64,000 bases of DNA from the IMG/VR virus record IMGVR_UViG_3300031521_000040, positions 19,182 through 83,181 of that record. One strand, 5' to 3'. The translations under genes were made by a program, and so were the position numbers. Of this stretch, positions 46,840-64,000 are shown in pieces. Each line of letters opens with the position of its first letter. The stretch's first letter is position 1. Source of the DNA: a virus. A model generated the notes under the pieces. That model was not told the origin of the DNA. It ran no database searches and saw only the letters and a program-made list of their open reading frames with translations.

Positions 46840-46870
46840 TTTGCATTTCTTGTAACTTTTACTACCTTTG
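46840..46870 (+). promoter_or_regulatory. Host-type promoter of tRNA operon 1
   Basis: TTTG at 46840-46843, 19-base spacer, TACCTTTG at 46863-46870. The surrounding 50 bases, including TGTAAC and GTTACGTATTTAG, are nearly identical to those at 50614-50657 before tRNA operon 2. Confidence 0.8.
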
Positions 46871-46927
46871 TTACGTATTTAGTTATGTCATAATTAATGT
46901 AATTATAATTTTTAAGAAAAAATCAAC

Positions 46928-47002
46928 ATGAAAAATTTAAACAACATACAACAACAACCGCAACAGCATCCACAAATGTCTGAACGGGGAAGTTATGTTT
47001 AA
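46928..47002 (+). CDS. Leader peptide of tRNA operon 1 (Gln/Pro/His-rich)
   Basis: 24 codons beginning MKNLNNI; codons 8-16 read QQQPQQHPQ, then MSERGSYV and TAA. The three enriched amino acids are those of the tRNAs downstream (two with Pro anticodons, His, Gln). Codons 19-21 contain GAACGGGG (46982-46989), complementary to CCCTGTTC in the terminator 5' arm at 47033-47040. A ribosome stalled in the QPH tract would leave GAACGGGG free to pair and prevent termination; one reaching the stop codon would cover it. Expected role: sensing charged Gln/Pro/His tRNA. Confidence 0.75.
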   Translation: MKNLNNIQQQPQQHPQMSERGSYV

Positions 47003-47030
47003 ATTTATCATGAGTTTAAAGCATTATAGA

Positions 47031-47060
47031 AACCCTGTTCGAAAGTTCAGGGTTTTTTTT
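47031..47060 (+). terminator. Attenuator terminator of tRNA operon 1
   Basis: AACCCTG (47031-47037) pairs with CAGGGTT (47048-47054) and runs into eight T residues. It sits between the leader peptide and the tRNAs and has a competing partner inside the leader ORF. Confidence 0.85.
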
Positions 47061-47070
47061 ATGTATATAT

Positions 47071-47082
47071 GTTCTTTGAAAA
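47071..47082 (+). promoter_or_regulatory. boxA-like antitermination element
   Basis: GTTCTTTGAAAA resembles boxA (GCTCTTTAACA type), the NusB/S10 site found in rRNA leaders. It lies 10 bases after the attenuator terminator and before the first RNA; the same element follows the other two tRNA attenuators. Confidence 0.6.
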
Positions 47083-47087
47083 GTATT

Positions 47088-47319
47088 GAAGAGGTGACTG
47101 AATGTTAAAGTTAATCAGGTGAAGGAGAGCCTTATGCTGGTAAAGTCAGTGTCTGCAACAAGACACTGGTGACTGCACCGAGGGGTGGGGTGAAATACCC
47201 ACACTGACCTAAAACGAGGCGTAGCACAAAGTATGGTTATTGTTCGGTGTACAACGATAATAATTTGAAATCGACCAACGCCTATCCTCACTCTGTGGGT
47301 TAAAGTCCCACCCTCTTCA
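47088..47319 (+). ncRNA. 232-base structured RNA with tRNA-like ends
   Basis: GAAGAGG at 47088-47094 pairs with CCTCTTC at 47312-47318 next to a T-arm-like hairpin GTGGG-TTAAAGT-CCCAC (47295-47311) and a discriminator A. Between them lie strong hairpins, such as CAGTGTCT/AGACACTG (47147-47168) and GTGGG/CCCAC (47185-47202), and a long-range GAGGCGT/ACGCC pairing. No normal anticodon arm is visible. It may be a tRNA with a large insertion or intron, or a tRNA-like regulator; tmRNA is unlikely because no tag frame is evident. Confidence 0.55.
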
Positions 47320-47325
47320 AAATAT

Positions 47326-47415
47326 CTAGGCGTAGGTCTGTAGTTGGTAGCAGTCCTGTCTTGGAAGCAGGTAGGGTAAAACCTCTCGTCAGTTCGAATC
47401 TGACCGCTTAGACCA
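47326..47415 (+). tRNA. tRNA-Pro-like (TGG), irregular, with encoded CCA
   Basis: Acceptor CTAGGCG/CGCTTAG, A73 and encoded CCA. Anticodon stem CCTGT/GCAGG with loop CTTGGAA gives anticodon TGG. It has an enlarged variable region and three extra bases before the D stem, and A37 rather than the G37 usual for tRNA-Pro. Identity uncertain. Confidence 0.55.
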
Positions 47416-47423
47416 ATTAATAT

Positions 47424-47495
47424 AGAGTAGTAGCGCAGTGGTAGCGTACATGGTTTGGGACCATGTGGTCGTGGGTTCGAGTCCCACTTACTCTA
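47424..47495 (+). tRNA. tRNA-Pro (TGG)
   Basis: Acceptor AGAGTAG/TTACTCT, D stem GCGC/GCGT, anticodon stem CATGG/CCATG with loop TTTGGGA (anticodon TGG, G37), T arm GTGGG-TTCGAGT-CCCAC. Confidence 0.9.
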
Positions 47496-47506
47496 CAAGA
47501 TCACAT

Positions 47507-47578
47507 GGGACGATTGGTGTATCGGTAGCACGGAAGTTTGTGAAGCTTTTAGAGTGGGTTCAAACCCCACATCGCCCC
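47507..47578 (+). tRNA. tRNA-His (GTG)
   Basis: The extra G at position -1 (47507) faces C73, the hallmark of tRNA-His. D stem GTGT/GCAC, anticodon stem GAAGT/GCTTT with loop TTGTGAA (GTG), T arm GTGGG-TTCAAAC-CCCAC. One A-C mismatch in the acceptor. Confidence 0.88.
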
Positions 47579-47587
47579 CTAAATTAT

Positions 47588-47659
47588 TGTTGTATAATAC
47601 AATGGTTAGTATAACTGACTTTGAATCAGTTTATTGTGGTTCGAATCCACATACAACAA
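47588..47659 (+). tRNA. tRNA-Gln (TTG)
   Basis: Acceptor TGTTGTA/TACAACA, D stem ATAC/GTAT, anticodon stem ACTGA/TCAGT with loop CTTTGAA (TTG), T arm TGTGG-TTCGAAT-CCACA. Confidence 0.9.
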
Positions 47660-47710
47660 CAAAATATTGTTCGATTTTTTATAAAATGATTCGAACTTTC
47701 ATATGTTTTC

Positions 47711-47719
47711 AGTATTTAT
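47711..47719 (+). promoter_or_regulatory. Candidate late promoter motif AGTATTTAT
   Basis: Exact motif followed by GATAAAA, 10 bases before the HNH gene start at 47730. Confidence 0.6.
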
Positions 47720-47729
47720 GATAAAACAT

Positions 47730-48299
47730 ATGAAAGAAGAAATATTAAAGTTAAGATCAGAAGGTAAAAAATATTATGAAATACAAAAAGCGTTAAATTG
47801 TTCTAAATCAATTGTTTCGTATTATTGTGGCGTTGCTCAAAAAGACAAATCTCGGAAAAGACAAGCTGAAAATAGAATGAAATGCAACGAAACAACCATT
47901 ATATGTAAAACAACTAATTTCAAATATTGTAGAATTGATAAGTCGAAAAAACTAAGAATTTCATCAACTAGTTTTCAAAAAAGACCTAATAAAATTTATG
48001 AAAAAGATATTACATTAACATTTGATTGGAAGGATGTAATCGATAAATTTGGTGAGGATACTTTTTGTTATTTAAGTGGTGAAAAAATAAACCTTATTAA
48101 TGATAAAAATTATAATCTTGATCATATTGTACCAAAAACCAGAGGTGGCGAAAATAATTTAGAAAATTTAGGAATTCTACATGAAACAGTTAATAAAATG
48201 AAAGGAGCATTGTTGAATGAAGAATTATTTGAGTGGTGTATAAAAATATTGAAGCATAATGGATATGATGTAGTAAAGAATAAAATAATAAACGATTAA
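47730..48299 (+). CDS. HNH endonuclease with HTH domain
   Basis: 189 residues from the ATG at 47730, chosen because the late motif overlaps the nine upstream codons. N-terminal helix-turn-helix (EEILKLRSEGKKYYEIQKAL, then NCSKSIVSYYCGV), C-terminal HNH nuclease: CYLSGEKINL, YNLDHIVPKTRGGENNLEN and ILHETVNKMKGAL, with the catalytic His in LDHI and Asn in EN-LGILH. A typical free-standing mobile endonuclease placed at the end of tRNA operon 1. Confidence 0.85.
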   Translation: MKEEILKLRSEGKKYYEIQKALNCSKSIVSYYCGVAQKDKSRKRQAENRMKCNETTIICKTTNFKYCRIDKSKKLRISSTSFQKRPNKIYEKDITLTFDWKDVIDKFGEDTFCYLSGEKINLINDKNYNLDHIVPKTRGGENNLENLGILHETVNKMKGALLNEELFEWCIKILKHNGYDVVKNKIIND

Positions 48300-48309
48300 A
48301 TATAACAGC

Positions 48310-49128
48310 ATGTATTACATAGTCCAGAAGAACGTCTTTAGAGAAGAAAATTACGATAATTTAATATTGGCTTTAGATCGATTAAAACTATCATACGAAA
48401 TAGTTGATGTACTACCATTTATTGAAACATTCGAGTTTCATTGTAAAGACAAAAATGTGTTTCCTTTTGGGTCAACGAAAATGGCTAGACTGTCTAAGCT
48501 ATATGGCTGGACACCCGGTTCTCAATTGAATGATAATCATGATTATCAGGTGTATAAAAACTTTTATGGTGATAATTTATTGAATTACGATTCACTTATT
48601 TATAAATTCGATGATGAATTTTTTGTTGACAAACCCTTTTTCGCCAGACCAACTAAAGATAGTAAAGCGTTTACTGGTAAGGTATTCGACATGGAAACAT
48701 GGAGAAAATTTAGAAACACTGCCTTAATCAATATACTTGATAAAGATACTGAAATTCAGGTATCATTAGTTAAAGTTATTCAAAAAGAAATAAGATTCTG
48801 GATAGTAAAAGGAAAAATTGCAACTGCAAGTCAATATAAACTAGGAACTAGAGTAGTGCTTAGCGACACCGTAGATCAGCCAGCATATGATTTTTGTAAT
48901 AAAATGATTCAATTGTTTCAATTAAACGATGCATTTGTAATGGATTTGTGTTTGGTTAATGATGAATATAAGATCGTTGAGTGTGGGTGCATTAATTGTG
49001 CTGGTTTCTATCGAGCTGATCTACAGAAATTATTGGTTAAACTAGAAGAAGCATTCTCAAACGATTATTTTGATCGTTGTTATCCGTCATTTTGTAATCC
49101 CATGGATCAAAACTTCTTGCGTTTATAA
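48310..49128 (+). CDS. ATP-grasp domain protein
   Basis: 272 residues. The centre and C-terminus match the ATP-grasp ligase fold of the small phage type: KPFFARPTKDSKAFTGKVF (Lys and Gly-rich lid), VQVIQKEIRFWIVKGKIATASQY-like strand pair (here KVIQKEIRFWIVKG), then VMDLCLVNDEYKIVECGCIN with the acidic and Asn residues that bind ATP-Mg. Such enzymes join a carboxylate to an amine, often modifying peptides or proteins. It starts 10 bases after the HNH gene; substrate unknown. Confidence 0.75.
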   Translation: MYYIVQKNVFREENYDNLILALDRLKLSYEIVDVLPFIETFEFHCKDKNVFPFGSTKMARLSKLYGWTPGSQLNDNHDYQVYKNFYGDNLLNYDSLIYKFDDEFFVDKPFFARPTKDSKAFTGKVFDMETWRKFRNTALINILDKDTEIQVSLVKVIQKEIRFWIVKGKIATASQYKLGTRVVLSDTVDQPAYDFCNKMIQLFQLNDAFVMDLCLVNDEYKIVECGCINCAGFYRADLQKLLVKLEEAFSNDYFDRCYPSFCNPMDQNFLRL

Positions 49129-49147
49129 AATTTAATAATTACTTTTG
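49117..49147 (+). promoter_or_regulatory. Possible host-type promoter
   Basis: TTG at 49117-49119, 20-base spacer, TACTTTTG at 49140-49147; 12 bases before the ATG at 49160. The upstream box is incomplete. Confidence 0.45.
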
Positions 49148-49159
49148 CAATAAAACGAT

Positions 49160-49405
49160 ATGAGAGCAGTTGTACCCTGTAATATCGACAATTCTGAAGA
49201 TATTGTCGATACAATAAAATACAATACTATAGGCATTTATGAAGATACAATATCTTCATTCAAAGACTATGTACTACCTGAAAATTCATTAGAACCAACA
49301 ACTACCACAATCTTTTTTCATAAAAGAGAAGATGAACATGGGTTTCTTCAACAAGTTACTATAACAATTAAAACAGAAGTCTTATTAGGATTTCAAAAAT
49401 ATTAA
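49160..49405 (+). CDS. Hypothetical small protein
   Basis: 81 residues of alternating strand character (TTTIFFHKRED, QVTITIKTEVL), unrecognised. It precedes the cyclic-phosphate receiver protein by 3 bases and is probably cotranscribed with it. Confidence 0.5.
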   Translation: MRAVVPCNIDNSEDIVDTIKYNTIGIYEDTISSFKDYVLPENSLEPTTTTIFFHKREDEHGFLQQVTITIKTEVLLGFQKY

Positions 49406-49408
49406 TAT

Positions 49409-49873
49409 ATGCAGTACAATCTATATTTAGATGACTTCAGAATGCCATTGGATTCGTTCAATTATACTAACAATAAAATATATAATATTGTTAATTGGAA
49501 GGTTGTGCGTAATTATGATGAATTCGTTGAAGCGATTCTAACTAATGGATTGCCTGAACGAATTTCCTATGATCATGACTTATCATATGAAGATATCAAT
49601 AAAGAAACTGGCTTTACTGAAAAAACTGGCTTGGATTGTGCTAGGTGGCTTATAAACTACTGTATGGATAATAATTTAGATGTGCCAGTTGAAATTTATA
49701 TTCATAGTATGAATACCGTTGGTGCATTAAATATTAAATCATTATTTACTACCTATTATAAGGTATACCCAACCGATAACGACTTTTATATTAATGATGT
49801 CTATATTAAAAACGGATTCTATTCTTATAATTATAGTCGTGGCTTTAATATGTGGAATGAAGATATTTATTAA
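49409..49873 (+). CDS. Cyclic-phosphate processing receiver-domain protein
   Basis: 154 residues. LDDFRMP (7-13), WKVVRNYDEFVEAI, ISYDHDLSYED, TGLDCARWLINYC and IYIHSMNTVGALNI are the successive motifs of the cREC family, a receiver-like domain with His and Asp residues proposed, from comparative genomics, to process 2',3'-cyclic phosphate ends of broken RNA. Here it follows a tRNA operon, and the phage also has an Rnl1-like RNA ligase and a P-loop kinase. End-healing of cleaved tRNA is a reasonable hypothesis. The activity of this protein is unproven. Confidence 0.75.
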   Translation: MQYNLYLDDFRMPLDSFNYTNNKIYNIVNWKVVRNYDEFVEAILTNGLPERISYDHDLSYEDINKETGFTEKTGLDCARWLINYCMDNNLDVPVEIYIHSMNTVGALNIKSLFTTYYKVYPTDNDFYINDVYIKNGFYSYNYSRGFNMWNEDIY

Positions 49874-49895
49874 GCATGCGTTTTTAAATAAAATA

Positions 49896-49904
49896 AGTAT
49901 TTAT
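49896..49904 (+). promoter_or_regulatory. Candidate late promoter motif AGTATTTAT
   Basis: Exact motif followed by GAAAAAA, 17 bases before the ATG at 49922. Confidence 0.6.
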
Positions 49905-49921
49905 GAAAAAATATATATTTT

Positions 49922-50344
49922 ATGCAAAAAATAGGTAAAGACAGACTTTTCGAAGTCCTAAGTAGGTTAGATAAAACATTCAAACTCATAAATGAAGAAC
50001 AACTACATCATTATAATGATGCTAACGAAACATTTGCACCCGATCAAAATGGCAATGAAGTTACAGATACTGTAAGTCCTGCTACAAGTACAGCACCACT
50101 TAACGAAGATCAATCAGAATCACCTATTCATAAATATGTTTACTTTGCATTTAACTATCCTAATGATTTTATTGAGCAAACATGGGCTGATGATGAAAAT
50201 TTAATGACCCATCTTAAATCTAAATTCCAAGGATATTATAATAAGTATGGTTCAGCTTCAGTAATGAATTATTTTTATACTGAACTTGATGTTCAAAATC
50301 AAAGGAAATTGGATGATTGGATTATTAATAATTATAATGGCTAA
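49922..50344 (+). CDS. Late protein with capsid-targeting-like tag
   Basis: 140 residues. Residues 6-20 KDRLFEVLSRLDKTF are the tag, nearly the same as in the 10439-11251 protein, followed by KLINEEQ with a possible protease site (I-N-E). A Thr/Pro/Asn-rich linker precedes a compact acidic domain (YVYFAFNYPNDFIEQTWADD, LKSKFQGYYNKYG). No enzyme motif. Probable head-internal protein. Confidence 0.6.
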   Translation: MQKIGKDRLFEVLSRLDKTFKLINEEQLHHYNDANETFAPDQNGNEVTDTVSPATSTAPLNEDQSESPIHKYVYFAFNYPNDFIEQTWADDENLMTHLKSKFQGYYNKYGSASVMNYFYTELDVQNQRKLDDWIINNYNG

Positions 50345-50350
50345 TATGTC

Positions 50351-50560: not shown

Positions 50561-50613
50561 AACAATTGATATTTAATGAGTTAAAAATTATTATTAATTA
50601 TTTTTAAAAATAC

Positions 50614-50644
50614 TTTGCATTTCTTGTAACATTTTATACCTTTG
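50614..50644 (+). promoter_or_regulatory. Host-type promoter of tRNA operon 2
   Basis: TTTG at 50614-50617, 19-base spacer, TACCTTTG at 50637-50644, nearly identical to the operon 1 promoter including flanking GTAAC and GTTAC half-sites. Confidence 0.8.
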
Positions 50645-50724
50645 TTACGTATTTAGATATACAAACAACAATAAGTAATTATTGAAATTTATTAAAAACA
50701 ACGAATATTAAAAACAAAAACGAA

Positions 50725-50814
50725 ATGAAAAATTTACTCGAAACTTTATTAGTAGCAATGGTAGCCGACCTATTATGGTTGGATGCAGAGGATATGTTAT
50801 GTGATGTCGGGTAA
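50725..50814 (+). CDS. Leader peptide of tRNA operon 2 (Leu/Asp/Val/Ala/Glu/Trp-rich)
   Basis: 29 codons: MKNLLETLLVAMVADL, then LWLDAEDMLCDVG. Twenty-one residues are Leu (8), Asp (4), Val (3), Ala (3), Glu (2) or Trp (1), all of which have tRNA genes in the operon. The Leu codons used (TTA, CTA, TTG, CTC) correspond to the Leu-type anticodons seen downstream. The last codons hold GTCGGGT (50806-50812), complementary to ACCCGAC in the terminator 5' arm (50854-50860); CCGAC at 50765-50769 can pair with it instead. This is a complete 1:2, 2:3, 3:4 attenuator layout. Confidence 0.78.
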   Translation: MKNLLETLLVAMVADLLWLDAEDMLCDVG

Positions 50815-50853
50815 AGGAAATAATAATATTGTTCACCTTTCTTTTTATAAAAG

Positions 50854-50884
50854 ACCCGACTATTAAAACCAGTCGGGTTTTTTT
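50854..50884 (+). terminator. Attenuator terminator of tRNA operon 2
   Basis: ACCCGACT (50854-50861) pairs with AGTCGGGT (50871-50878) followed by a T run. The 5' arm has a second partner in the leader ORF at 50806-50812. Confidence 0.87.
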
Positions 50885-50899
50885 GTTTTAGGTGAATAA

Positions 50900-50910
50900 G
50901 TTCTTTGACA
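50900..50910 (+). promoter_or_regulatory. boxA-like antitermination element
   Basis: GTTCTTTGACA lies 15 bases after the attenuator T run and 18 bases before the first tRNA. Confidence 0.6.
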
Positions 50911-50928
50911 TGCTGGAAAAAATAAAAT

Positions 50929-51008
50929 GGTCTTAGGGTCTGCTGGGCGTGGACGACACCCTGTCACGGTGTTCAATCAGGTCGATTCGAATTCGACTAG
51001 GACCGCCA
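50929..51008 (+). tRNA. tRNA-Asp (GTC)
   Basis: Acceptor GGTCTTA/TAGGACC, G73 and encoded CCA. Anticodon stem ACACC/GGTGT with loop CTGTCAC (GTC). T arm GTCGA-TTCGAAT-TCGAC; variable region slightly long. Confidence 0.85.
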
Positions 51009-51015
51009 TTAATAC

Positions 51016-51088
51016 AATGCTATAGTTCAATTGGCAGAATAACTGACTGTCTATCAGTGGGTTGCGGGTTCGAGTCCCGTTAGCATTG
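51016..51088 (+). tRNA. tRNA-Asp (GTC), second copy
   Basis: Acceptor AATGCTA/TAGCATT with G73, D stem GTTC/GAAT, anticodon stem ACTGA/TCAGT with loop CTGTCTA (GTC). Base 37 is T rather than a purine, which is unusual. Confidence 0.75.
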
Positions 51089-51148
51089 CACGGTTTACTG
51101 GAAGGTAAACTAATCAGAGTTATATAAAACGTGATAAATTAACTCTGA

Positions 51149-51218
51149 AGTCTCGTAGTTTAGAGTGGATATGAATGCCCTGAAGGGGTGGTTGCTGGTT
51201 CAACGCCAGTCGGGACTG
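51149..51218 (+). tRNA. tRNA-like gene with aberrant anticodon arm
   Basis: Acceptor AGTCTCG/CGGGACT, D stem GTTT/GAAT and T arm are good, but the anticodon arm folds as GCCC-TGAA-GGGG, without a seven-base loop. A Phe (GAA) reading is possible only with a weak stem. Possibly degenerate. Two hairpins precede it (51092-51147). Confidence 0.5.
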
Positions 51219-51228
51219 CTTTTAAAAT

Positions 51229-51303
51229 GTTGCCGTTGATAAATTGGCGAAATCACCTGACTTTCAATCAGGTCATATGTGGGTTCAAGTCCCATCGGCA
51301 ATA
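51229..51303 (+). tRNA. tRNA-Glu (TTC)
   Basis: Acceptor GTTGCCG/CGGCAAT, anticodon stem CCTGA/TCAGG with loop CTTTCAA (TTC), T loop TTCAAGT. Confidence 0.85.
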
Positions 51304-51309
51304 CAATAT

Positions 51310-51382
51310 GTCGCTATATGCTAATTGGCTAGGCAATAACACCTTCACTGTTATGGTGTGAGTTCGATCCTCACTAGCGATA
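51310..51382 (+). tRNA. tRNA-Glu-like (TTC) with C33
   Basis: Acceptor GTCGCTA/TAGCGAT, D stem TGCT/GGCA, anticodon stem TAACA/TGTTA with loop CCTTCAC: anticodon TTC but C instead of U at position 33. T arm GTGAG-TTCGATC-CTCAC. Confidence 0.75.
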
Positions 51383-51403
51383 CAATTTTTAAATAAAAAC
51401 GTT

Positions 51404-51541
51404 ATGAAACCATTAAAAAGAAAATTAACCTCAACTGAATTTAGTAAAAAGCAAGAGAACGCAGCTAATTACGGAAAATTCATTAAAACAACTTTAGTTG
51501 AAAGAGGTAAACAGAGAAACATTTTCAAAATTAAGAACTGA
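51404..51541 (+). CDS. Small basic protein inside tRNA operon 2
   Basis: 45 residues (MKPLKRKLTSTEFSKKQENA and a basic tail with IKTTLVERGKQRN), with about a quarter Lys/Arg. It lies between tRNA genes and is the only clean ORF in its gap. It may bind tRNA or be a leader-like element; no family recognised. Confidence 0.5.
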   Translation: MKPLKRKLTSTEFSKKQENAANYGKFIKTTLVERGKQRNIFKIKN

Positions 51542-51599
51542 TAACATATAAGCGGTTAATAGCCTGTGAGACATTAACGGCTAATATATTATTACTTAT

Positions 51600-51674
51600 G
51601 TTCCCTTAGCTTAGCTGGTTTAAAGCACTTCTCCTACAAAGAAGATACCGTTGGTTCAAATCCAACAGGGAACA
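51600..51674 (+). tRNA. tRNA-Val (TAC) with C33
   Basis: Textbook cloverleaf: acceptor GTTCCCT/AGGGAAC, D stem GCTT/AAGC, anticodon stem CTTCT/AGAAG, T arm GTTGG-TTCAAAT-CCAAC. The loop is CCTACAA, so anticodon TAC with C at position 33. Confidence 0.85.
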
Positions 51675-51741
51675 CAAAACATAACAATAAGTGTTTTCGC
51701 TTATATTCATATTTAATAAGCGAAAACACTTGTAAATATAT

Positions 51742-51823
51742 CCTTTTGTGGTGGAATTGGTATACACGGCAGCCCAAGAAACTGTTGTCGAAGGACATGC
51801 GAGTTCAAATCTCGCCAAGAGGA
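51742..51823 (+). tRNA. tRNA-Leu-like, type II, loop CCAAGAA
   Basis: Acceptor CCTTTTG/CAAGAGG, D stem GTGG/ACAC-like, long variable arm GTC-GAAG-GAC and T arm GCGAG-TTCAAAT-CTCGC define a Leu-type body. Counting from the D arm, the loop is CCAAGAA (anticodon AAG, C33) with a C31-A39 mismatch; CAA is an alternative reading. Confidence 0.7.
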
Positions 51824-51830
51824 CTGAGAT

Positions 51831-51944
51831 GTAATATGGTAATAAAGACGATGGCTGAGTGAGGCTATAGCGTGTCCAAAGCGCCAATAGACCACCAGAG
51901 GTTAACTCCCGATGCAATATCTGGCAACCTCACTCCCATATTAC
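51831..51944 (+). ncRNA. Three-way-junction RNA between tRNAs
   Basis: GTAATATGG (51831-51839) pairs with CCATATTAC (51936-51944); inside, GTGAGG (51859-51864) pairs with CCTCAC (51928-51933), enclosing two hairpins (CTAT/ATAG and CCAGA/TCTGG at 51894-51924). There is no T arm or acceptor of tRNA type. Unidentified 114-base structured RNA. Confidence 0.55.
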
Positions 51945-51959
51945 GGAAAGATGAATTAT

Positions 51960-51978
51960 CGTCTGGAGATTCCAGACG
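51960..51978. repeat. Intercistronic hairpin, copy 1
   Basis: CGTCTGGA-GAT-TCCAGACG, an almost perfect stem between RNAs; a second copy with the same stem lies at 53112-53128 and a related one at 53322-53342. Confidence 0.65.
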
Positions 51979-51989
51979 GAAAATAATAT

Positions 51990-52064
51990 GCTGGTGTAGC
52001 CGAATGGTAAATAGGCAACTGACTTAGGATCAGAAATTTGCGAGTTCGAGTCTCGCCACCAGTA
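51990..52064 (+). tRNA. tRNA-Leu (TAG)
   Basis: Acceptor GCTGGTG/CACCAGT, anticodon stem ACTGA/TCAGA-like with loop CTTAGGA (TAG, G37), T arm GCGAG-TTCGAGT-CTCGC. The variable region is short for tRNA-Leu. Confidence 0.82.
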
Positions 52065-52069
52065 CATTT

Positions 52070-52158
52070 GGGGATGTGATGAAATTGGTAGCACATGACA
52101 AGCTTAAACCTTGTTGCGAAATAATAGTAGCGTGTCAGTTCGAGTCTGACCTTCCCTA
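52070..52158 (+). tRNA. tRNA-Leu (TAA)
   Basis: Acceptor GGGGATG/CTTCCCT (one mismatch), anticodon stem ACAAG/CTTGT with loop CTTAAAC (TAA), long variable arm, T arm GTCAG-TTCGAGT-CTGAC. Confidence 0.87.
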
Positions 52159-52169
52159 CTGAAATACAT

Positions 52170-52241
52170 GGGGTGTGAAGTGTAATTGGCTGCACAAAAC
52201 ATTTGCAATGTTTTAGAGGGGTTCAAGTCCCACACGCTCCA
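52170..52241 (+). tRNA. tRNA-Ala (TGC)
   Basis: Acceptor GGGGTGT/ACGCTCC, anticodon stem AAACA/TGTTT with loop TTTGCAA (TGC), T loop TTCAAGT. Confidence 0.85.
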
Positions 52242-52282
52242 CAAGAAATTTTGAGTTCATTCAATCTTTTCTCCACAATTAA

Positions 52283-52291
52283 AGTATTTAT
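52283..52291 (+). promoter_or_regulatory. Candidate late promoter motif AGTATTTAT
   Basis: Exact motif followed by GATAAAA, 14 bases before the HNH gene at 52306. Confidence 0.6.
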
Positions 52292-52305
52292 GATAAAATA
52301 TTATT

Positions 52306-53097
52306 ATGAATATATGTAAAAATTGTGGAATTGAAATCGAATCACATCGTAAATATTGTTCATTGAGATGTAGAAATATATATGTTAATGAAAATCTTAG
52401 AAACTATAGTAAAAACGGTGATTCTATTAGCAAAAAATTTGTTGATGAATATAATTCACATCCAAAAAAATGTAAAGCATGTGATAAAATTATACCATAT
52501 GCGCTAAGGGAATGGGTTTTTTGTTCTAAAGAATGTAAAAAAACTGGATTAATTAAGTGGAATGAAAATCGAAAAGGCGAAAAGCGTAGTTTTAGTAAAG
52601 AAGGAATTGATAATATTATTATAGCAAGACGATTAAGATTAGATACTAGTTTTGAGGATTACATGTCTAATCCGAAACTTTGTAAAGAATGTGGTGAAAA
52701 ATTGCCGTTTGACCATAAAGCACGAATTTTCTGTAATATTAAATGTAAACGAATTTATGATAGTAAAAACATATCCGAATATCAAATTTATTATAAAAAT
52801 TGTCAGTTTAAATTTAATTTATCTAACTATCCAGAAGAATTTAATTTCGATATGATAAATGAATATGGTTGGTATAAAGCAAAAAATCATGGTGATAATT
52901 TAAATGGTATTAGTCGTGACCATATGATTTCAGTAAAATATGGTTATGAAAATAATATTAGCTCAGATATTATTTCTCACCCTGCTAATTGCAAACTAAT
53001 GCCACATAGTAGTAATTCAAAGAAACATAGTAACTGTTCGCTTAGCTTAGAAAACTTGCTACTAAAAATCAATGAATGGAATTTAAAATATTATTAG
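52306..53097 (+). CDS. HNH homing endonuclease with zinc fingers
   Basis: 263 residues. Three zinc-finger pairs (CKNCGIEI...YCSLRCR; CKACDKII...FCSKECK; CKECGEKL...FCNIKCK) precede an HNH nuclease with ISRDHMISVKYGYENN, then PANCKLMPHSSNSKKHS. It lies inside tRNA operon 2 between tRNA-Ala and the Trp-anticodon tRNA, with its own late motif, so it is expressed separately from the tRNAs. Mobile element. Confidence 0.83.
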   Translation: MNICKNCGIEIESHRKYCSLRCRNIYVNENLRNYSKNGDSISKKFVDEYNSHPKKCKACDKIIPYALREWVFCSKECKKTGLIKWNENRKGEKRSFSKEGIDNIIIARRLRLDTSFEDYMSNPKLCKECGEKLPFDHKARIFCNIKCKRIYDSKNISEYQIYYKNCQFKFNLSNYPEEFNFDMINEYGWYKAKNHGDNLNGISRDHMISVKYGYENNISSDIISHPANCKLMPHSSNSKKHSNCSLSLENLLLKINEWNLKYY

Positions 53098-53111
53098 AAA
53101 TAAATAAAATC

Positions 53112-53128
53112 GTCTGGAAATTCCAGAC
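53112..53128. repeat. Intercistronic hairpin, copy 2
   Basis: GTCTGGAA and TTCCAGAC form a perfect 8-bp stem just before the next tRNA; same stem as at 51960. Confidence 0.65.
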
Positions 53129-53135
53129 AAAACAT

Positions 53136-53218
53136 ACGTAAGTTGCCGAGTGGTTAAAGGCGGTGGTCTCCAAAACTACTAGAGAAATCTTTCGTGGGTT
53201 CGAATCCTACCTTACGTG
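53136..53218 (+). tRNA. tRNA with Trp anticodon (CCA) and type II variable arm
   Basis: Acceptor ACGTAAG/CTTACGT with G73, D arm of Ser/Leu type (GCC...GGC), anticodon stem GTGGT/ACTAC with loop CTCCAAA (CCA), T arm with TTCGAAT. The 14-base variable arm is unexpected for tRNA-Trp. A Trp codon in the operon 2 leader supports the anticodon. Confidence 0.75.
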
Positions 53219-53240
53219 CTTGATAATCAACAAGTTATAT

Positions 53241-53314
53241 AGCCCTATATGCCAACTGGTAGAGTGAGGTGTTTCAAACGCATCGTAGTGAGAGTTCGAA
53301 TCTCTCTAGGGCTA
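53241..53314 (+). tRNA. tRNA-Leu-like (CAA), possible alternative TCA
   Basis: Acceptor AGCCCTA/TAGGGCT and T arm GAGAG-TTCGAAT-CTCTC are perfect; the D stem is poor. Stem GGTGT/GCATC with loop TTCAAAC gives CAA and a normal 5-base variable region. Moving one base gives loop TTTCAAA (TCA) with a weaker stem. Confidence 0.65.
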
Positions 53315-53321
53315 CATTTAG

Positions 53322-53342: not shown

Positions 53343-53448
53343 AATTAATTTAATATTTTTGTAACATTTCGCTATAGTTATACGTATAATAATTAAAATA
53401 TTCTTGCTTATTATTATCATTATCATTACTTTTAACAAAAATTATCAC

Positions 53449-57790: not shown

Positions 57791-57878
57791 GGGGGTGTGA
57801 TGAAATTGGTAAACATAACAGACTTAAAATCTGTCGGTTAGCTTAAGCGCCTTGAGGGTTCAAGTCCCTCTACCCCTA
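57791..57878 (+). tRNA. tRNA-Leu (TAA), isolated
   Basis: Anticodon stem ACAGA/TCTGT with loop CTTAAAA (TAA), long variable arm, T arm GAGGG-TTCAAGT-CCCTC and acceptor GGGGGTG/TACCCCT. It has no leader module of its own and probably rides on the early operon transcript. Confidence 0.9.
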
Positions 57879-57892
57879 CAAACCTAAATGAA

Positions 57893-58012
57893 ATGAAAGC
57901 TAAACCAAAAGAAGATGATTGTAATTGTGGTAAACCATTGAAATTAGATGATCCACGAAAGAAAGCATTAGAAGCAAAAAAAATTATTAAGAAAAGAAAT
58001 CTACTTAAATAA
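57893..58012 (+). CDS. Hypothetical small protein
   Basis: 39 residues, MKAKPKEDDCNCGKPLKLDD and a Lys-rich helix. A single C-x-C pair. It starts 14 bases after tRNA-Leu; composition and coding strand fit neighbouring genes, but support is thin. Confidence 0.4.
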   Translation: MKAKPKEDDCNCGKPLKLDDPRKKALEAKKIIKKRNLLK

Positions 58013-58013
58013 A

Positions 58014-58022
58014 AGTATTTAT
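58014..58022 (+). promoter_or_regulatory. Candidate late promoter motif AGTATTTAT
   Basis: Exact motif. The first ATG after it (58027) opens only eight codons (MKKLWEFL); the next gene starts at 58077. Confidence 0.5.
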
Positions 58023-58076
58023 TATTATGAAAAAACTATGGGAATTCTTGTAACGCTCTAATGCGTATACGGGATT

Positions 58077-58364
58077 ATGAGAAATAAAGAAACTATGGAT
58101 GCCACTGACAATCGTGGCGTATTCAATCGTGCATACAAGGAATATCTTGAGCACAAAGGAAAAATTCATTGCAGCTATTGCAAATATCATAAGGGTGAAA
58201 ATTACAAGGGTAATAGCTATGGAGGATATGGGAAAGTTAAGCTTCCTAATTGGAAGCTAGTATCGAAGAACCCTAAACAATGGATGAAAAAACCGATGAA
58301 AATCGTTGAAAAACCAACACATCACCCAATGTATAATATGTTTTATACTGAAATCAAATTTTAG
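58077..58364 (+). CDS. Hypothetical protein
   Basis: 95 residues with a single HCSYC pair near residue 31, a Gly/Tyr-rich stretch and a basic, Pro-rich end. Met7 at 58095 is an alternative start. A late motif is 54 bases upstream with an eight-codon ORF between, which may be a leader. No family recognised. Confidence 0.5.
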   Translation: MRNKETMDATDNRGVFNRAYKEYLEHKGKIHCSYCKYHKGENYKGNSYGGYGKVKLPNWKLVSKNPKQWMKKPMKIVEKPTHHPMYNMFYTEIKF

Positions 58365-58372
58365 TATAATAT

Positions 58373-58443
58373 GCGGATATCGTTCAAAGGTAGGACTGCT
58401 CCCCCATAAAGAGTAGATATGAGTTCGATTCTCATTATCCGTA
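58373..58443 (+). tRNA. tRNA-Met-like (CAT) with C33
   Basis: Acceptor GCGGATA/TATCCGT, D stem GTTC/GGAC, T arm ATGAG-TTCGATT-CTCAT. Counted from the D arm, the anticodon stem is GCTCC/AGAGT and the loop CCCATAA: anticodon CAT with C33 and a C31-A39 mismatch. Could be elongator Met or an Ile2-type tRNA. Confidence 0.75.
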
Positions 58444-58447
58444 CAAA

Positions 58448-59995: not shown

Positions 59996-60023
59996 TCATT
60001 TTATGGTTGTAAAAAATATGAAG

Positions 60024-60032
60024 AGTATTTAT
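60024..60032 (+). promoter_or_regulatory. Candidate late promoter motif AGTATTTAT
   Basis: Exact motif, 19 bases before the LAGLIDADG gene. Confidence 0.6.
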
Positions 60033-60051
60033 ATCTATAAAACTATATGGC

Positions 60052-60996
60052 ATGGGAAAAAAATGTTTTTTTGAAGAAAATGAAATTATTGATATTATTA
60101 AAAAATACACTATTGAAAACCTGAGTTGTGAAAAAATTGGAATTTTATATAATGTTTCATCGACCACCATATCACGAAACCTTAAAAAAAATAAAATTGA
60201 AATTAAAAAATGTAATGAGTATAAAAAATACACAGTAAATGAAGAATTTTTAAAAAATGTTAATGGTATTAATTCATATTTTATTGGGTTAATGGCATCG
60301 GATGGAAATGTTAAAAAGAATTTCAGGTGTTTTTCAATATCACAGTCAGGTATAAACGGCATGAAATTGATTGAGCAAATTTCTAATTGGTTAGCATATT
60401 CAGGGAAAATTTATCATGCAAGAACGTCATGTAAAATATCACATGGAATTACTATTACTTCGGAAAAATTGGTTTCCGAAGTAATCAAACACAATATAGT
60501 GCCAAATAAATCAGCAATATTCTATTATAATAATTTAGCCTTATTAAAAGAGTTTTTACAGGGATATGTTGACGGAGATGGATGTGTTGGCATTTACAAA
60601 AAAAACGGAAAAAATTACTATTATATTAGTTTTTTTGGTACTACAAAATTTATGAAAAGTATTATTTCATTAATTCCGATAATACCTACTTGTTATAAGA
60701 TAAATGAAAACTATCATGAAATTAAGTTTTTTGGTAAAAAGGGTATTGATTTCAGTAATTGGCTATGGGAATATCCAGTATATAGCGATAGTATAAAATA
60801 TAAAAAATATGTTTTATTTAAAGCCAATGAATACCTTAACAGTGAAAAATATCAATATAATAAACTAAATATTGATATTATGAATATGTTGGATAAAAAT
60901 TTTACAGTAAAAGAAATTTGTGATAAGCACAATATTAATAAAAGAACAGTTTATAATTTAAAATATAATAAAAAAAATGGAAGAGGTACTTACTAA
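60052..60996 (+). CDS. LAGLIDADG homing endonuclease
   Basis: 314 residues. An N-terminal HTH (IIKKYTIENLSCEKIGILYN) precedes two LAGLIDADG helices, YFIGLMASDGNV (about 89-100) and FLQGYVDGDGCVGI (about 173-186), whose acidic ends (SDG, GDG) form the active site. A second HTH lies at the C-terminus (TVKEICDKHNINKRTVYNL). It lies between the broken methyltransferase and the RNA ligase, overlapping the latter by 20 bases, with its own late motif. Confidence 0.88.
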   Translation: MGKKCFFEENEIIDIIKKYTIENLSCEKIGILYNVSSTTISRNLKKNKIEIKKCNEYKKYTVNEEFLKNVNGINSYFIGLMASDGNVKKNFRCFSISQSGINGMKLIEQISNWLAYSGKIYHARTSCKISHGITITSEKLVSEVIKHNIVPNKSAIFYYNNLALLKEFLQGYVDGDGCVGIYKKNGKNYYYISFFGTTKFMKSIISLIPIIPTCYKINENYHEIKFFGKKGIDFSNWLWEYPVYSDSIKYKKYVLFKANEYLNSEKYQYNKLNIDIMNMLDKNFTVKEICDKHNINKRTVYNLKYNKKNGRGTY

Positions 60997-62062
60997 AATC
61001 GATTGGAATGTATTAAATACTTATATTGAAAATAATTTAATTGTATCAAATAAACATCCAGAATATGATATTTGGATACTAAATTATTCGCCAAAGGCAC
61101 AGTCAAAAAAGTTTTGGGATGAATACACCATGTCCTGTAGAGGCTTAGTTGTAGATATTGATGGTAATATAATTAGCCGATGTATGAAAAAGTTCAAAAA
61201 TTATGAAGAACATGATCCATCGGAAATTGATATGTTACAGTCATTCGAAATTTTCGAAAAGATGGACGGGTCAATGATTTCTGTTTTTTGGTACGATGCA
61301 CGTAACGAATGGATTGTAGCCAGCAGGGGGTCTTTTATTTCGGAACAGTCTGTGGAAGCCAGAAAAATACTGAGTAATAAATCTGTTTACTTGGAAAAAA
61401 ATAATACATATATTTTCGAGGTAATATATCCTGAAAATCAGATAGTTGTCCACTACAATGGAATTCGTAGCTTAGTACTACTTACTGTTATTGAAACTAA
61501 GTCAGGCATCGAAGCACCATATGATAATGTATTAAATAACTATGTTGATTATTTTACTATCGTTAAGAAATATGATATTAAGAATATCAACAACTTAAAC
61601 GATTTAAAAATACTTGAAGAAGAAAATCATGAAGGTTTTGTTGTGAAATTTGCCGATGGATTCCGAGTTAAAGTAAAATTTAATGAATACATCCGATTGC
61701 ATGGTATTTTAACTAATGTTTCAAATGTTGTAGTTTGGGAACACTTAATGAATAACTATAACTTTGATCTATTATTAGATAGAGTTCCTGATGAATTTTA
61801 TGACTGGTTGAGAAGAACAGTGGGATCGCTACAATTGCAATATAATGATATTGAACGATTGGCTTTGAAGGATTTTATCAGAATTTATCATATAAATAAT
61901 ATATCAGATCGTAAAGCATTCGCAATGGAAGCTATAAAAACAGAACATCGTTCGATATTGTTTAGACTTTATGACAAAAAGCCATATGATGTATTAATCT
62001 GGAAACAAATTCGACCTGTATTTTCGAAGCCATTCAAAGATGGCTATGAATATGTTTCATAA
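60977..62062 (+). CDS. rnlA: RNA ligase, T4 Rnl1 family
   Basis: 361 residues, close to T4 Rnl1 (374). Motif I is EKMDGS with adenylated Lys95; SCRGLVVDIDG upstream, motif III YIFEVIYPENQIVV, motif IV HEGFVVKF and motif V RVKVKFNEYIRLH follow in order. Rnl1-type ligases seal 3'-OH and 5'-phosphate RNA ends and in T4 repair tRNA cut by the host anticodon nuclease PrrC. The C-terminal helical domain that recognises tRNA in T4 also appears present. The gene ends at a strong terminator. Confidence 0.9.
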   Translation: MEEVLTKIDWNVLNTYIENNLIVSNKHPEYDIWILNYSPKAQSKKFWDEYTMSCRGLVVDIDGNIISRCMKKFKNYEEHDPSEIDMLQSFEIFEKMDGSMISVFWYDARNEWIVASRGSFISEQSVEARKILSNKSVYLEKNNTYIFEVIYPENQIVVHYNGIRSLVLLTVIETKSGIEAPYDNVLNNYVDYFTIVKKYDIKNINNLNDLKILEEENHEGFVVKFADGFRVKVKFNEYIRLHGILTNVSNVVVWEHLMNNYNFDLLLDRVPDEFYDWLRRTVGSLQLQYNDIERLALKDFIRIYHINNISDRKAFAMEAIKTEHRSILFRLYDKKPYDVLIWKQIRPVFSKPFKDGYEYVS

Positions 62063-62097
62063 AAAACGGTCATGCTGCAGAGTATGACCGTTTTTTT
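62062..62097 (+). terminator. Intrinsic terminator after the RNA ligase
   Basis: CGGTCAT (62067-62073) and ATGACCG (62084-62090) pair, flanked by A and T runs. It starts at the ligase stop codon. Confidence 0.87.
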
Positions 62098-62106
62098 AGT
62101 ATTTAT
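62098..62106 (+). promoter_or_regulatory. Candidate late promoter motif AGTATTTAT
   Basis: Exact motif directly after the ligase terminator, 16 bases before the protease ATG at 62123. Confidence 0.65.
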
Positions 62107-62122
62107 AAGAAAATCAAATACT

Positions 62123-62914
62123 ATGAAACCATTCACCTACTTAAAAAAATTATTTAAAAAAAAGAAAACAATCAAATTCGGGTGGAAAAAAGATAATCTA
62201 GACCCAAGAGACATTAAATTTAAAATTGAACAACAACACGCATTACCGCCGATGGTTGATTTAAGATCCTATTGTCCACCTGTTTATGATCAGGGTAATA
62301 TAGGTAGTTGTACTGCAAATTCATTGGCTGCTGCTTATCAGTTTGAGGAAATGAAACAAAAGGGTGAAAATTTTATCCCATCAAGATTATTTATCTATTA
62401 TAATGAAAGAGCATTAGAAGGAAATGTCAATACTGATAGTGGTGCTGCAATCAGAGACGGCATTAAAACAATGGTTACTGATGGCGTATGTCCTGAAACA
62501 ATATGGAAATATAGCCCAAATAAATTTGCAATAAAACCAACTAAAGAATGTTATGATGCTGCATTAAATAATCAGGTTGTAGAGTATTTAAGAATTACTC
62601 CACATAATTTATATGAAGTTAAACATTGCATTTCTGATGGTTATCCAGTTGTATTTGGTTTCATGATCTATGAATCATTTATGGATGCAGAAGTTGCACG
62701 TACTGGTATTGCGCCTATGCCTAAATCTAATGAAATATTACAAGGCGGACATGCTGTTCTTGCTGTTGGATATGATGACTCAATGGAAGCGTTAATTGTT
62801 AGAAATAGTTGGGGAAGTGATTGGGGCATTGATGGCTATTTTTATCTTCCATATGGGTTTGTTACTGAAGAAAACTTATCTGCCGATTATTGGACAATCA
62901 GATTGGTTGAGTAG
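62123..62914 (+). CDS. Papain-like (C1 family) cysteine protease
   Basis: 263 residues from the ATG at 62123; the frame reaches 62072 but through a terminator. VYDQGNIGSCTANS holds the oxyanion Gln57 and nucleophile Cys63; QGGHAVLAVGYDD holds His210; VRNSWGSDWGIDGYFYLP holds Asn228. All four papain-type catalytic residues are therefore present. There is no signal peptide; the first 30 residues are basic and may be a short propeptide. Late expression suggests virion maturation, lysis or entry. Papain-type enzymes are uncommon in phages. Confidence 0.88.
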   Translation: MKPFTYLKKLFKKKKTIKFGWKKDNLDPRDIKFKIEQQHALPPMVDLRSYCPPVYDQGNIGSCTANSLAAAYQFEEMKQKGENFIPSRLFIYYNERALEGNVNTDSGAAIRDGIKTMVTDGVCPETIWKYSPNKFAIKPTKECYDAALNNQVVEYLRITPHNLYEVKHCISDGYPVVFGFMIYESFMDAEVARTGIAPMPKSNEILQGGHAVLAVGYDDSMEALIVRNSWGSDWGIDGYFYLPYGFVTEENLSADYWTIRLVE

Positions 62915-62921
62915 TATTTAT
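62913..62921 (+). promoter_or_regulatory. Candidate late promoter motif AGTATTTAT
   Basis: Exact motif overlapping the protease stop region; the ATG immediately after opens only nine codons, and the next gene starts at 63024. Confidence 0.45.
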
Positions 62922-62922
62922 A

Positions 62923-62972
62923 TGCACGAATTAAATATTTTGTTAAATTAAACGATTTGGCTAATTCGTGCA
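62923..62972. repeat. 11-bp inverted repeat between protease and next gene
   Basis: TGCACGAATTA (62923-62933) and TAATTCGTGCA (62962-62972) are exact inverse copies separated by 28 bases, straddling a TATCTTTG box at 62974. It could be an operator or an mRNA hairpin. Confidence 0.5.
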
Positions 62973-63023
62973 TTATCTTTGTACAAAATCTAATACAGTA
63001 TTCATTAAACATATAAACTAAAT

Positions 63024-63365
63024 ATGAGAAATATCTTTGAAATCATCAATGAAGAGATTGACACATTAAATATCAATAGCCAACAGAATAACAATCCAGA
63101 ACCTGATTATGGTTGGGCTATCTTTAGAATAGCAAACGGACATAAATATTATGTTATTAAAATAGATACGCAGTCTGATAAAATTATTATGTATGATAGC
63201 GGTGTTAAGTATTCGGATAGAAAAGTATTGAAGTTTTCGGAAAAAAGAGCAGCACAAATAATAAAAAAGAACATGAATGTTGATAAAAAATATGGAATTG
63301 TCAACAGTAGAGGTGTTCAAAAACTGTATGATTGGAGTATTCGTTACGATAATGGCTTAAGCTAG
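63024..63365 (+). CDS. Protein with NEEI-type N-terminal tag
   Basis: 113 residues. MRNIFEIINEEIDTLNI is the NEEI tag; an Asn/Gln-rich linker follows, then a small strand-rich domain (YGWAIFRIANGHKYYVIKID, IIMYDSG). No family recognised. It shares the tag with two late proteins, suggesting the same destination in the virion or membrane. Confidence 0.55.
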   Translation: MRNIFEIINEEIDTLNINSQQNNNPEPDYGWAIFRIANGHKYYVIKIDTQSDKIIMYDSGVKYSDRKVLKFSEKRAAQIIKKNMNVDKKYGIVNSRGVQKLYDWSIRYDNGLS

Positions 63366-63427
63366 TGTTGATAATCAACCAGTTAAAAATAAATGAAAAA
63401 TAATTGCAATTTTTTGTAACATTTTGC

Positions 63428-63458
63428 TTGTCTAATACGTATTTATGGTATATCTTTG
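63428..63458 (+). promoter_or_regulatory. Host-type promoter of tRNA operon 3
   Basis: TTG at 63428-63430, 20-base spacer, TATCTTTG at 63451-63458. The upstream TTTTTTGTAACATTTT and TACGTATTTA are shared with the other tRNA promoters. Confidence 0.65.
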
Positions 63459-63489
63459 TTAAATAAAACAAATAATAACAAAACAAACA

Positions 63490-63582
63490 ATGAGAACATT
63501 TGGTAAAACATATCGTGGTTATAAATCTTATAAGAAAACTCTTATGGAATCGGGATTGCTTTGTCAAATAAAAACAACTTAA
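63490..63582 (+). CDS. Leader peptide of tRNA operon 3 (Lys/Thr/Tyr/Gly/Arg-rich)
   Basis: 30 codons: MRTFGKTYRGYKSYKKT, then LMESGLLCQIKTT. Lys occurs five times, Thr five, Tyr three, Gly three, Arg two and Ser two. The only identifiable tRNA of this operon within the window is Lys (TTT), in agreement. Codons for ESG contain GAATCGGG (63547-63554), complementary over 8 bases to CCCGATTC in the terminator 5' arm (63617-63624). The Lys/Thr/Tyr/Arg/Gly tract lies before that segment, as needed for stalling control. Confidence 0.72.
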   Translation: MRTFGKTYRGYKSYKKTLMESGLLCQIKTT

Positions 63583-63614
63583 AATAGTTTAATAGCATTT
63601 AGACATTATCAAAA

Positions 63615-63644
63615 ACCCCGATTCATTAGAGTCGGGGTTTTTTT
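63615..63644 (+). terminator. Attenuator terminator of tRNA operon 3
   Basis: ACCCCGA (63615-63621) pairs with TCGGGGT (63632-63638), then seven T residues; the 5' arm has a competing partner in the leader ORF. Confidence 0.85.
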
Positions 63645-63655
63645 GTTCTTTAAAA
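63645..63655 (+). promoter_or_regulatory. boxA-like antitermination element
   Basis: GTTCTTTAAAA directly after the terminator T run; third instance of this arrangement. Confidence 0.6.
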
Positions 63656-63845
63656 TATTGATGAAATGAAAGTTGTTTGAAATTATTATTGAAAGTCTGA
63701 AGGAAACTACATGGGAGACATACGCAATCGTGAGATAAAAAACGTGAGCAGTGGAAGGCGCTGACAGGCACAGAAGTTAAGAAATGTATTAGTAGATCAA
63801 ATCAGTATGTAATGAGATTAGAATGACGAGTAATCACACTAACGG
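63656..63845 (+). other. tRNA operon 3 leader RNA, nothing recognised
   Basis: 190 bases between boxA and the first tRNA with no clear ORF or tRNA. Small hairpins exist (for example GATTA/TAATC near 63817-63836). It occupies the same place as the 232-base tRNA-like RNA of operon 1 but lacks a T arm. Confidence 0.4.
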
Positions 63846-63932
63846 GATATCTGTAGCTCAGTCAGGTAGAGCAGGAGACAGCGTTTGCGTATTAGAAACT
63901 CCGTGTCATAGGTTCAAATCCTATCTGGTGTC
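63846..63932 (+). tRNA. tRNA-like gene with interrupted anticodon loop
   Basis: D stem GCTC/GAGC, T arm ATAGG-TTCAAAT-CCTAT and acceptor ATATCTG/CTGGTGT (with a possible G-1:C73 pair) are normal. The anticodon stem GGAG/CTCC encloses 19-21 bases instead of 7, as if 12 bases, including GCGTTTGCG, had been inserted. Identity cannot be assigned. Confidence 0.6.
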
Positions 63933-63955
63933 ATAAACCGTTGGTGTGTAATTTT

Positions 63956-64000
63956 GCCTTCGTAGCTCAATAGGTAGACGCACCTGACTTTTAATCAGGG
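63956..64000 (+). tRNA. tRNA-Lys (TTT), cut by the window end
   Basis: Acceptor 5' strand GCCTTCG, D arm GCTCAATAGGTAGACG and anticodon stem CCTGA/TCAGG with loop CTTTTAA (TTT). The T arm lies beyond the window. Confidence 0.85.

Follow-up and report, generated by a model that had tools for sequence, protein, structure and literature searches.

Ribosome-mediated transcription attenuation of the trp/his/ilv type, in which one leader would sense several tRNAs at once, very probably governs the transfer RNA (tRNA) operons in a 64,000-nucleotide stretch of viral DNA from IMG/VR record IMGVR_UViG_3300031521_000040. This stretch (the window) comprises bases 19182-83181 of the 83,181-base record, i.e., its 3′ end; it carries three such operons, and the fourth operon of the relatives is missing because the window covers only that end. 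Support for attenuation comes from the anatomy of the units, the cognate and codon-level composition of their leaders, the geometry of the cognate codons, matched changes in pairing, and the spread of the design among phages. The original prediction had likened the layout to trp/his/leu attenuation, and covariation together with matched pairing changes in relatives argues for that likeness.

In the proposed mechanism, RNA polymerase would initiate at a promoter of the Bacteroidota type, trailed by a ribosome on a leader open reading frame (ORF) of 22-48 codons, which holds codons for nearly every tRNA of its operon. When all cognate tRNAs are present, the ribosome would proceed and cover the pairing segment, allowing the terminator to form and leaving the tRNA genes silent. 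When any cognate tRNA is scarce, the ribosome would stall 13-30 nucleotides upstream of the segment, which could then pair with the 5′ arm of the terminator, and the polymerase would pass (in many units via a boxA-like site) into the tRNA genes. The tRNA product would in turn relieve the stall, giving a direct negative feedback on tRNA supply that is divided among several multi-tRNA sensors. Stalling, read-through, feedback, and the trigger of the latter are what we infer.

Each array in the window begins with a promoter bearing the Bacteroidota-type −7 box TAnnTTTG, a leader ORF of 24-30 codons, an intrinsic terminator, and a boxA-like site, all at the positions originally predicted and all on the plus strand; the boxA-like sequence downstream of terminator 3, GTTCTTTAA, is weaker than the GTTCTTTGA that follows terminators 1 and 2. 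In operon 1 (Pro/His/Gln), the promoter (46840-46870, read directly) contains a −33 TTTG and the −7 box TACCTTTG at 46863-46870, followed by leader ORF 1 (46928-47002; MKNLNNIQQQPQQHPQMSERGSYV), terminator 1 (47028-47057, with the T-run to 47061; −13.5 kcal/mol, z −4.5 versus shuffles), the boxA-like GTTCTTTGAAA (47071-47081), and tRNA genes for Pro(TGG), Pro(TGG), His(GTG), and Gln(TTG) (47326-47660; ARAGORN and Rfam). Operon 2 (Asp/Glu/Val/Leu/Ala/Trp/Met) has its promoter region at 50622-50644 with the same −7 box at 50637-50644, leader ORF 2 at 50725-50814 (MKNLLETLLVAMVADLLWLDAEDMLCDVG), terminator 2 at 50849-50883 (T-run to 50890; −16.0 kcal/mol, z −4.9), and the boxA-like GTTCTTTGACA at 50900-50910. 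ARAGORN called eleven tRNAs at 50929-53315 (Asp, Asp, Glu, Glu, Val, Leu(AAG), Leu(TAG), Leu(TAA), Ala, Trp, and Leu(CAA)), among which protein genes are interspersed, and a distal tRNA-Leu(TAA) plus tRNA-Met at 57791-58444, which are possibly the end of operon 2 or possibly transcribed on their own. In operon 3 (Lys/Tyr), the −7 box TATCTTTG was read from the sequence at 63451-63458, leader ORF 3 occupies 63490-63582 (MRTFGKTYRGYKSYKKTLMESGLLCQIKTT), and terminator 3 lies at 63611-63642 (T-run to 63647; −20.9 kcal/mol, z −5.5). The tRNA genes begin at 63847 with a tRNA carrying an anticodon-arm insertion (63847-63932), which is followed by a tRNA-Lys(TTT) truncated at the contig end at 64000; the operon thus runs off the contig, and relatives have their Lys/Tyr operon at this place.

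The pairing of 7-8 bases between the distal leader and the 5′ arm of the terminator, which would serve as the antiterminator, was found exactly where it had been proposed in all three operons. Segment 2 of operon 1, GAACGGGG (46982-46989), pairs with CCCTGTTC (47033-47040), one of the pairs being a G-U, and the two fold together at −18.3 kcal/mol while the 3′ arm of the terminator is still unmade; in operon 2, GTCGGGT (50806-50812) pairs exactly with ACCCGAC (50854-50860), as well as with a protector sequence early in the ORF, TTTACTCGA; and in operon 3, GAATCGGG (63547-63554) pairs exactly with CCCGATTC (63617-63624).

Relatives provided the material for comparison. The window has genes for a T4-type head (major head protein phrog_138, portal phrog_213), and a search with the major capsid gave 118 relatives, of which 80 were kept, on contigs of up to 365 kb. 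Three matches sit in metagenome bins labeled Bacteroidales or Bacteroidota, and because of this and of the TAnnTTTG promoters, the host is most likely a member of the Bacteroidota. Leaders were sought around the tRNA genes of about 30 related contigs and were picked, blind to composition, by their hairpin and T-run, the length and stop position of the ORF, and the promoter; 74 distinct leader peptides were obtained from 38 related viral records, a few of which are overlapping stretches of one contig. The exact promoter pattern matched just one additional contig, and a scan of the relatives with TTTTT...GTTCTTT was dropped as too unspecific.

The relatives have four operon classes, {Pro,His,Gln}, {Asp,Glu,Val,Leu,Ala,Trp,Met}, {Lys,Tyr}, and {Cys,Ile,Ser,Phe,Gly,Asn,Thr,Arg}, which jointly cover all 20 amino acids and are exemplified by the leaders MKNLIHIQPQPQQHPQMSEWGNYA, MKNLLDILMVVLAVDLLWADAEDKLCLVG, MKTFGKSYYGYKSYKKHLMESGLVCQNSM, and MKAISTISTSTFTTSSRNGNGIFCFGRNIKGTGFGFHKS, respectively. 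Across 49 units, 60% of the control-region residues are cognate to the tRNAs of their own operon versus 24% expected from phage proteins. In the window, 60% of the control residues of leader 1 fall in {P,H,Q} (7% expected) and 85% of those of leader 2 in {A,D,E,L,M,V,W} (34% expected). The original prediction had restricted the enrichment to operons 1 and 2; it holds for these two, and the restriction does not, since leader 3 belongs to the class-3 leaders and is cognate (Lys/Tyr) too. The breadth of the four classes and the sharp end of the enrichment at the edge of the pairing segment likewise go beyond what had been noted. Covariation of leader amino acids with downstream tRNAs, which had been proposed as a check, was found across relatives and in other lineages of huge phages. 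When leaders were reassigned to operons within genomes, 0 of 20,000 trials reached the observed match, i.e., no shuffled assignment did as well, and the true assignment ranked first in 13 of the 13 genomes tested.

These data bear on whether the leader ORFs encode functional small proteins, with the terminator ending upstream or leader transcripts and the match in composition being incidental. Motifs such as MKNL..., QPQQHP, and SRNGNGIFCS are indeed recognizable across relatives in some classes, as would be expected of such proteins. However, classes and lineages that share no peptide sequence still match their downstream tRNAs, the enrichment ends at segment 2, and the other two frames of the same leader DNA give cognate fractions of only 20% and 19%. 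Furthermore, conserved C-terminal residues such as VEWG and VG encode the pairing segment itself. A protein-coding role as the explanation is accordingly very improbable.

As the 49 units come from related genomes, they are not 49 independent events; this kinship is answered by two natural experiments and by the other huge-phage lineages described below. In the related genome G012, operon 4 is split: a leader containing IITITQITRIRGTKT precedes Thr/Arg/Ile tRNAs, and one containing FLNLNNNPSNLNSNFISGNIFLGTC precedes Phe/Ile/Ser/Gly/Asn/Leu(CTN)/Cys. In both G012 and G011, the CTN-reading Leu tRNAs stand in operon 4 and Leu CTN codons stand in the operon-4 leader, and the operon-2 leaders of the two genomes keep one CTN (in G011) among eight Leu codons. 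An apparent exception in G012, a Lys/Tyr leader before Leu(GAG), comes from an ARAGORN miscall of the tRNA; two tRNAs with anticodons GTA (Tyr) and TTT (Lys) were recognized there by eye.

The match extends to codons. Theory predicts a particular choice of synonymous codons in sensitive attenuators (PMC1183508), and a cognate codon is present in the leader for 380 of the 409 distinct operon anticodons, compared with 348 ± 5 after synonymous resampling at phage codon usage and 185 after shuffled assignment. Without class 2 the count is 193 of 210 (177 ± 4 resampled), and for class 4 alone it is 127 (115 ± 3). Arg codon CGC accounts for 8 of the 30 Arg codons in class-4 leaders versus 2% genome-wide; the rare Leu codon CTC of class 2 was left out of the codon evidence because it is part of the protector hairpin. 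This bears on a general sensor of translation rate, in which a slowdown of ribosomes from whatever cause (low energy, antibiotics, global depletion) would open the operons and the codon match would be secondary. The architecture would answer any stall in the leader, and up to eight amino acids are represented per leader, which is in favor of such a sensor. A general sensor would nevertheless need no match of amino acids or codons, whereas the partition of amino acids tracks that of the tRNA genes in every genome tested, isoacceptor codons included; this alternative is therefore regarded as improbable.

Regarding geometry, the cognate fraction reaches 87-96% for codons starting 30 to 13 nucleotides upstream of the pairing segment and falls to 22-33%, near background, for codons from 6 nucleotides upstream into the segment; over the last eight leader codons it is 0.29. 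A ribosome stalled with one of the enriched upstream codons in its A site would leave the pairing segment free. The score of pairing between segment 2 and the terminator arm is 21.0 versus 12.0 for shuffled sequences, and each leader pairs better with its own terminator than with those of the same class (17, 18, 1, and 0 of 100,000 permutations were as good for the four comparisons), bearing out the expectation that pairing is kept by matched changes. Class 1 illustrates such changes with GAATGGGG/CCCCATTC, GAACGGGG/CCCTGTTC, and GCTTGGG/CCCAAGC. Folding with and without a ribosome, which had also been proposed, gave the expected alternatives: in the nascent leader, while the 3′ arm of the terminator is absent, the antiterminator has a folding energy of −9 to −34 kcal/mol, and with a ribosome at the stop codon the terminator alone forms. 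Since the terminator is preferred at equilibrium in the window leaders with both arms present, the switch would have to be kinetic, as in trp. Class 2 has in addition a protector (1:2) hairpin, TTACTCGAC/GTCGGGTAA.

Several points weigh against attenuation or complicate it. Of all classes searched for a protector hairpin, which in attenuators of the trp type enforces termination when translation is lacking but is not universal, class 2 (Asp/Glu/Val/Leu) alone has one; untranslated leaders of the other classes might therefore be read through or be terminated by other means. Segment 2 of class 3 ends about 25 nucleotides before the end of the stop codon; a terminating ribosome may cover it incompletely, and coverage would then have to occur during elongation. 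Some leaders hold codons without a matching call: the leader of G018 retains HP although no tRNA-His was detected, the operon-2 leader of G020 has Trp although no Trp tRNA was called, and Tyr codons are present in operon 3 of G009, for which a Tyr tRNA was likewise not called. Additional promoters may exist in operons that contain protein genes and gaps of several kb, extra tRNA would be no help if the amino acid rather than the tRNA ran short, and the support for attenuation is comparative, drawn from sequence data.

The promoter box TAnnTTTG lies upstream of 45 of 50 leaders in relatives versus 11% expected, a figure somewhat inflated by the detector, which favored candidates with the box; the boxA-like TTC[AT]TTGA occurs within 75 nucleotides in 23 of 50 units versus about 1% expected per site. 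An element TTGTAAC-N(16)-ACGTAT is present in five copies in the window (0.08 expected), at 13518-13546 (minus strand), 46850-46878, 50624-50652, 53359-53387, and 63414-63442. Three copies are at leader promoters and two before protein genes, the copy at 53359 also lying upstream of the distal Leu(TAA)/Met tRNAs. Its GTAAC/GTTAC halves look like an operator or a phage promoter element. The presence of this conserved element beside the promoters, and the plausibility of uncharged or scarce tRNA as a signal, speak for control by a T-box-like tRNA-binding riboswitch or by a phage protein acting on the hairpin, the ORF being a by-product. However, no T-box or other riboswitch was found in the leaders with Rfam at the gathering threshold, no T-box was found in operons 1 and 3 at E values up to 1, and the Rfam search of the leaders gave no known RNA family besides tRNAs; a reading frame full of cognate codons would also stay unexplained. 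Such direct RNA or protein sensing is extremely unlikely.

Other huge phages were scanned with the same composition-blind detector, and LR756500, LR756501 (735 kb), LR756502, and Lak show the same design with different amino-acid partitions. LR756501 has SKHSKHFSSSSKWF before Trp/His/Phe/Lys/Ser, YNDYCIND before Ile/Cys/Asp/Asn/Tyr, MIQEQMQQIQ before Met/Gln/Ile/Glu, a Leu leader, and TPAPAVAFRRGTGTGTGT before Arg/Thr/Val/Ala/Gly/Pro, the last from a relaxed, composition-aware search and counted in the pooled permutation test; a second Lak leader likewise came from the relaxed search. In LR756502, SSRSRSS precedes Arg/Ser and NLNMNLNTLTVVNNTL precedes Asn/Leu/Val/Ile/Thr, with four further leaders; in LR756500, IIDNRRDDNN precedes Asn/Asp/Arg/Met, with three further leaders; and in Lak-A1 and Lak-C1, GMHPVCGMVHMFPCGGGRPM precedes His/Pro/Arg/Gly/Cys/Met. 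The true assignment ranked first of 24 (LR756500), 120 (LR756501), and 720 (LR756502), no permutation out of 20,000 matched the pooled set including Lak, and pairing between leader and terminator was significant at 0.05 in 15 of 16 units. The detector gave no unit in T4, T5, phiCbK, crAss001, or the huge phages LR756508 and LR756511, and a single unit in KVP40, which is not cognate-enriched. Away from tRNAs, 441 one-kb windows yielded 10 units, 2 of them with a promoter. AT-rich DNA commonly contains short ORFs and hairpins, which raises the question of chance or detector bias; yet the leaders were chosen blind to composition, neither of the two sets had an equal among its 20,000 permutations, and the results for T4, T5, phiCbK, crAss001, and KVP40 speak against it as well, leaving this explanation with almost no probability.

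Host-type tRNA genes in two Bacteroidota bins had no cognate leader, whereas phage-like contigs in one such bin do carry them, both in a small sample. The contigs L348 and L352 of a Bacteroidota bin hold class-4 and class-3 leader/tRNA units and are most likely phage contigs binned along with the host.

The neighborhood of operon 1 has features of its own. A structured stretch at 47085-47325, between terminator 1 and the first tRNA, has a hairpin resembling a T arm, and its ends are tRNA-like (GAAGAGG ... CCTCTTC); Rfam gave no family for it, and ARAGORN with introns called no intron-containing tRNA. An HNH endonuclease gene (47703-48299), likely a homing-type gene within the array, adjoins the operon, an R2K-clade ATP-grasp protein (PF14243) is encoded at 48310-49128 between operons 1 and 2, and a cyclic-phosphate-processing receiver-domain protein (PF20274) at 49409-49873 lies next to operon 1 and would possibly fit a link to RNA damage or repair.

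Ribosome-mediated attenuation is established for amino-acid operons, including E. coli trp, Salmonella his, leu, thr, ilvGMEDA, ilvBN, and pheA (PMC1183508). The phage units share with them the leader ORF rich in control codons, the intrinsic terminator, the mutually exclusive antiterminator, and a predicted stall point that precedes it by about one ribosome footprint, and, as in ilv, several amino acids would be sensed through one leader. In contrast, the phage units are viral and would regulate tRNAs rather than biosynthetic enzymes, number four to six per genome and jointly cover many or all amino acids, match isoacceptor codons, and have the protector hairpin in one class only. The hisS leader peptide and the T-box, which control aminoacyl-tRNA synthetase genes (PMC2965389), are similar in acting on genes of translation supply by premature termination that responds to tRNA charging, but their targets are synthetases, not tRNAs, and T-boxes read tRNA without translation. 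Phage tRNAs are known to replace cleaved host tRNAs, e.g., T5 tRNA-Tyr against retron-Eco7 and phage tRNA-Lys against PrrC (PMC11555353, PMC10264068). Those arrays supply tRNAs destroyed by host defenses, as the present ones may; they were reported with strong promoters and no sensing leader, and a leader-ORF/terminator unit stands before the tRNAs here, unlike in constitutive arrays of the T4/T5 type. The tRNA arrays of huge phages were described by Al-Shayeb et al. 2020 (PMC7162821) and for Lak (PMC8346664) from genomes related or identical to those that yielded units, and neither these nor the phage-tRNA papers mention leader peptides or attenuation. No attenuated tRNA operon was found in the open-access literature, which omits most subscription papers. 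The mechanism class is therefore known, and the tRNA targets, the viral setting, and the coverage of all amino acids appear to be new.

The purpose and use of phage-carried tRNAs have been debated for decades. Candidate triggers of the leaders are perhaps decay of host tRNAs following host shut-off, their cleavage by anticodon nucleases, or the codon demand of phage genes. PrrC cleaves tRNA-Lys and retron-Eco7 acts on tRNA-Tyr (PMC11555353), and it is suggestive that Lys and Tyr share an operon of their own. The chances are about even that huge Bacteroidota phages possess genome-wide, codon-specific tRNA sensors, in which each multi-tRNA leader feeds back on its own operon, re-partitioned between lineages, as an inducible counter-defense that restores exactly those tRNAs removed in infection by host anticodon nucleases or decay. 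The leaders would record the expectation of the phage, namely an operon that is off unless a specific tRNA runs short, and would make ideas of tRNA depletion and counter-defense directly testable by reporter. Leader-peptide attenuation would be extended to viruses and to tRNA genes, and the leaders would offer ready-made, codon-specific sensors of tRNA shortage for all 20 amino acids. The units may also serve to delimit tRNA operons and to predict, for uncultured hosts, the tRNAs that become scarce.

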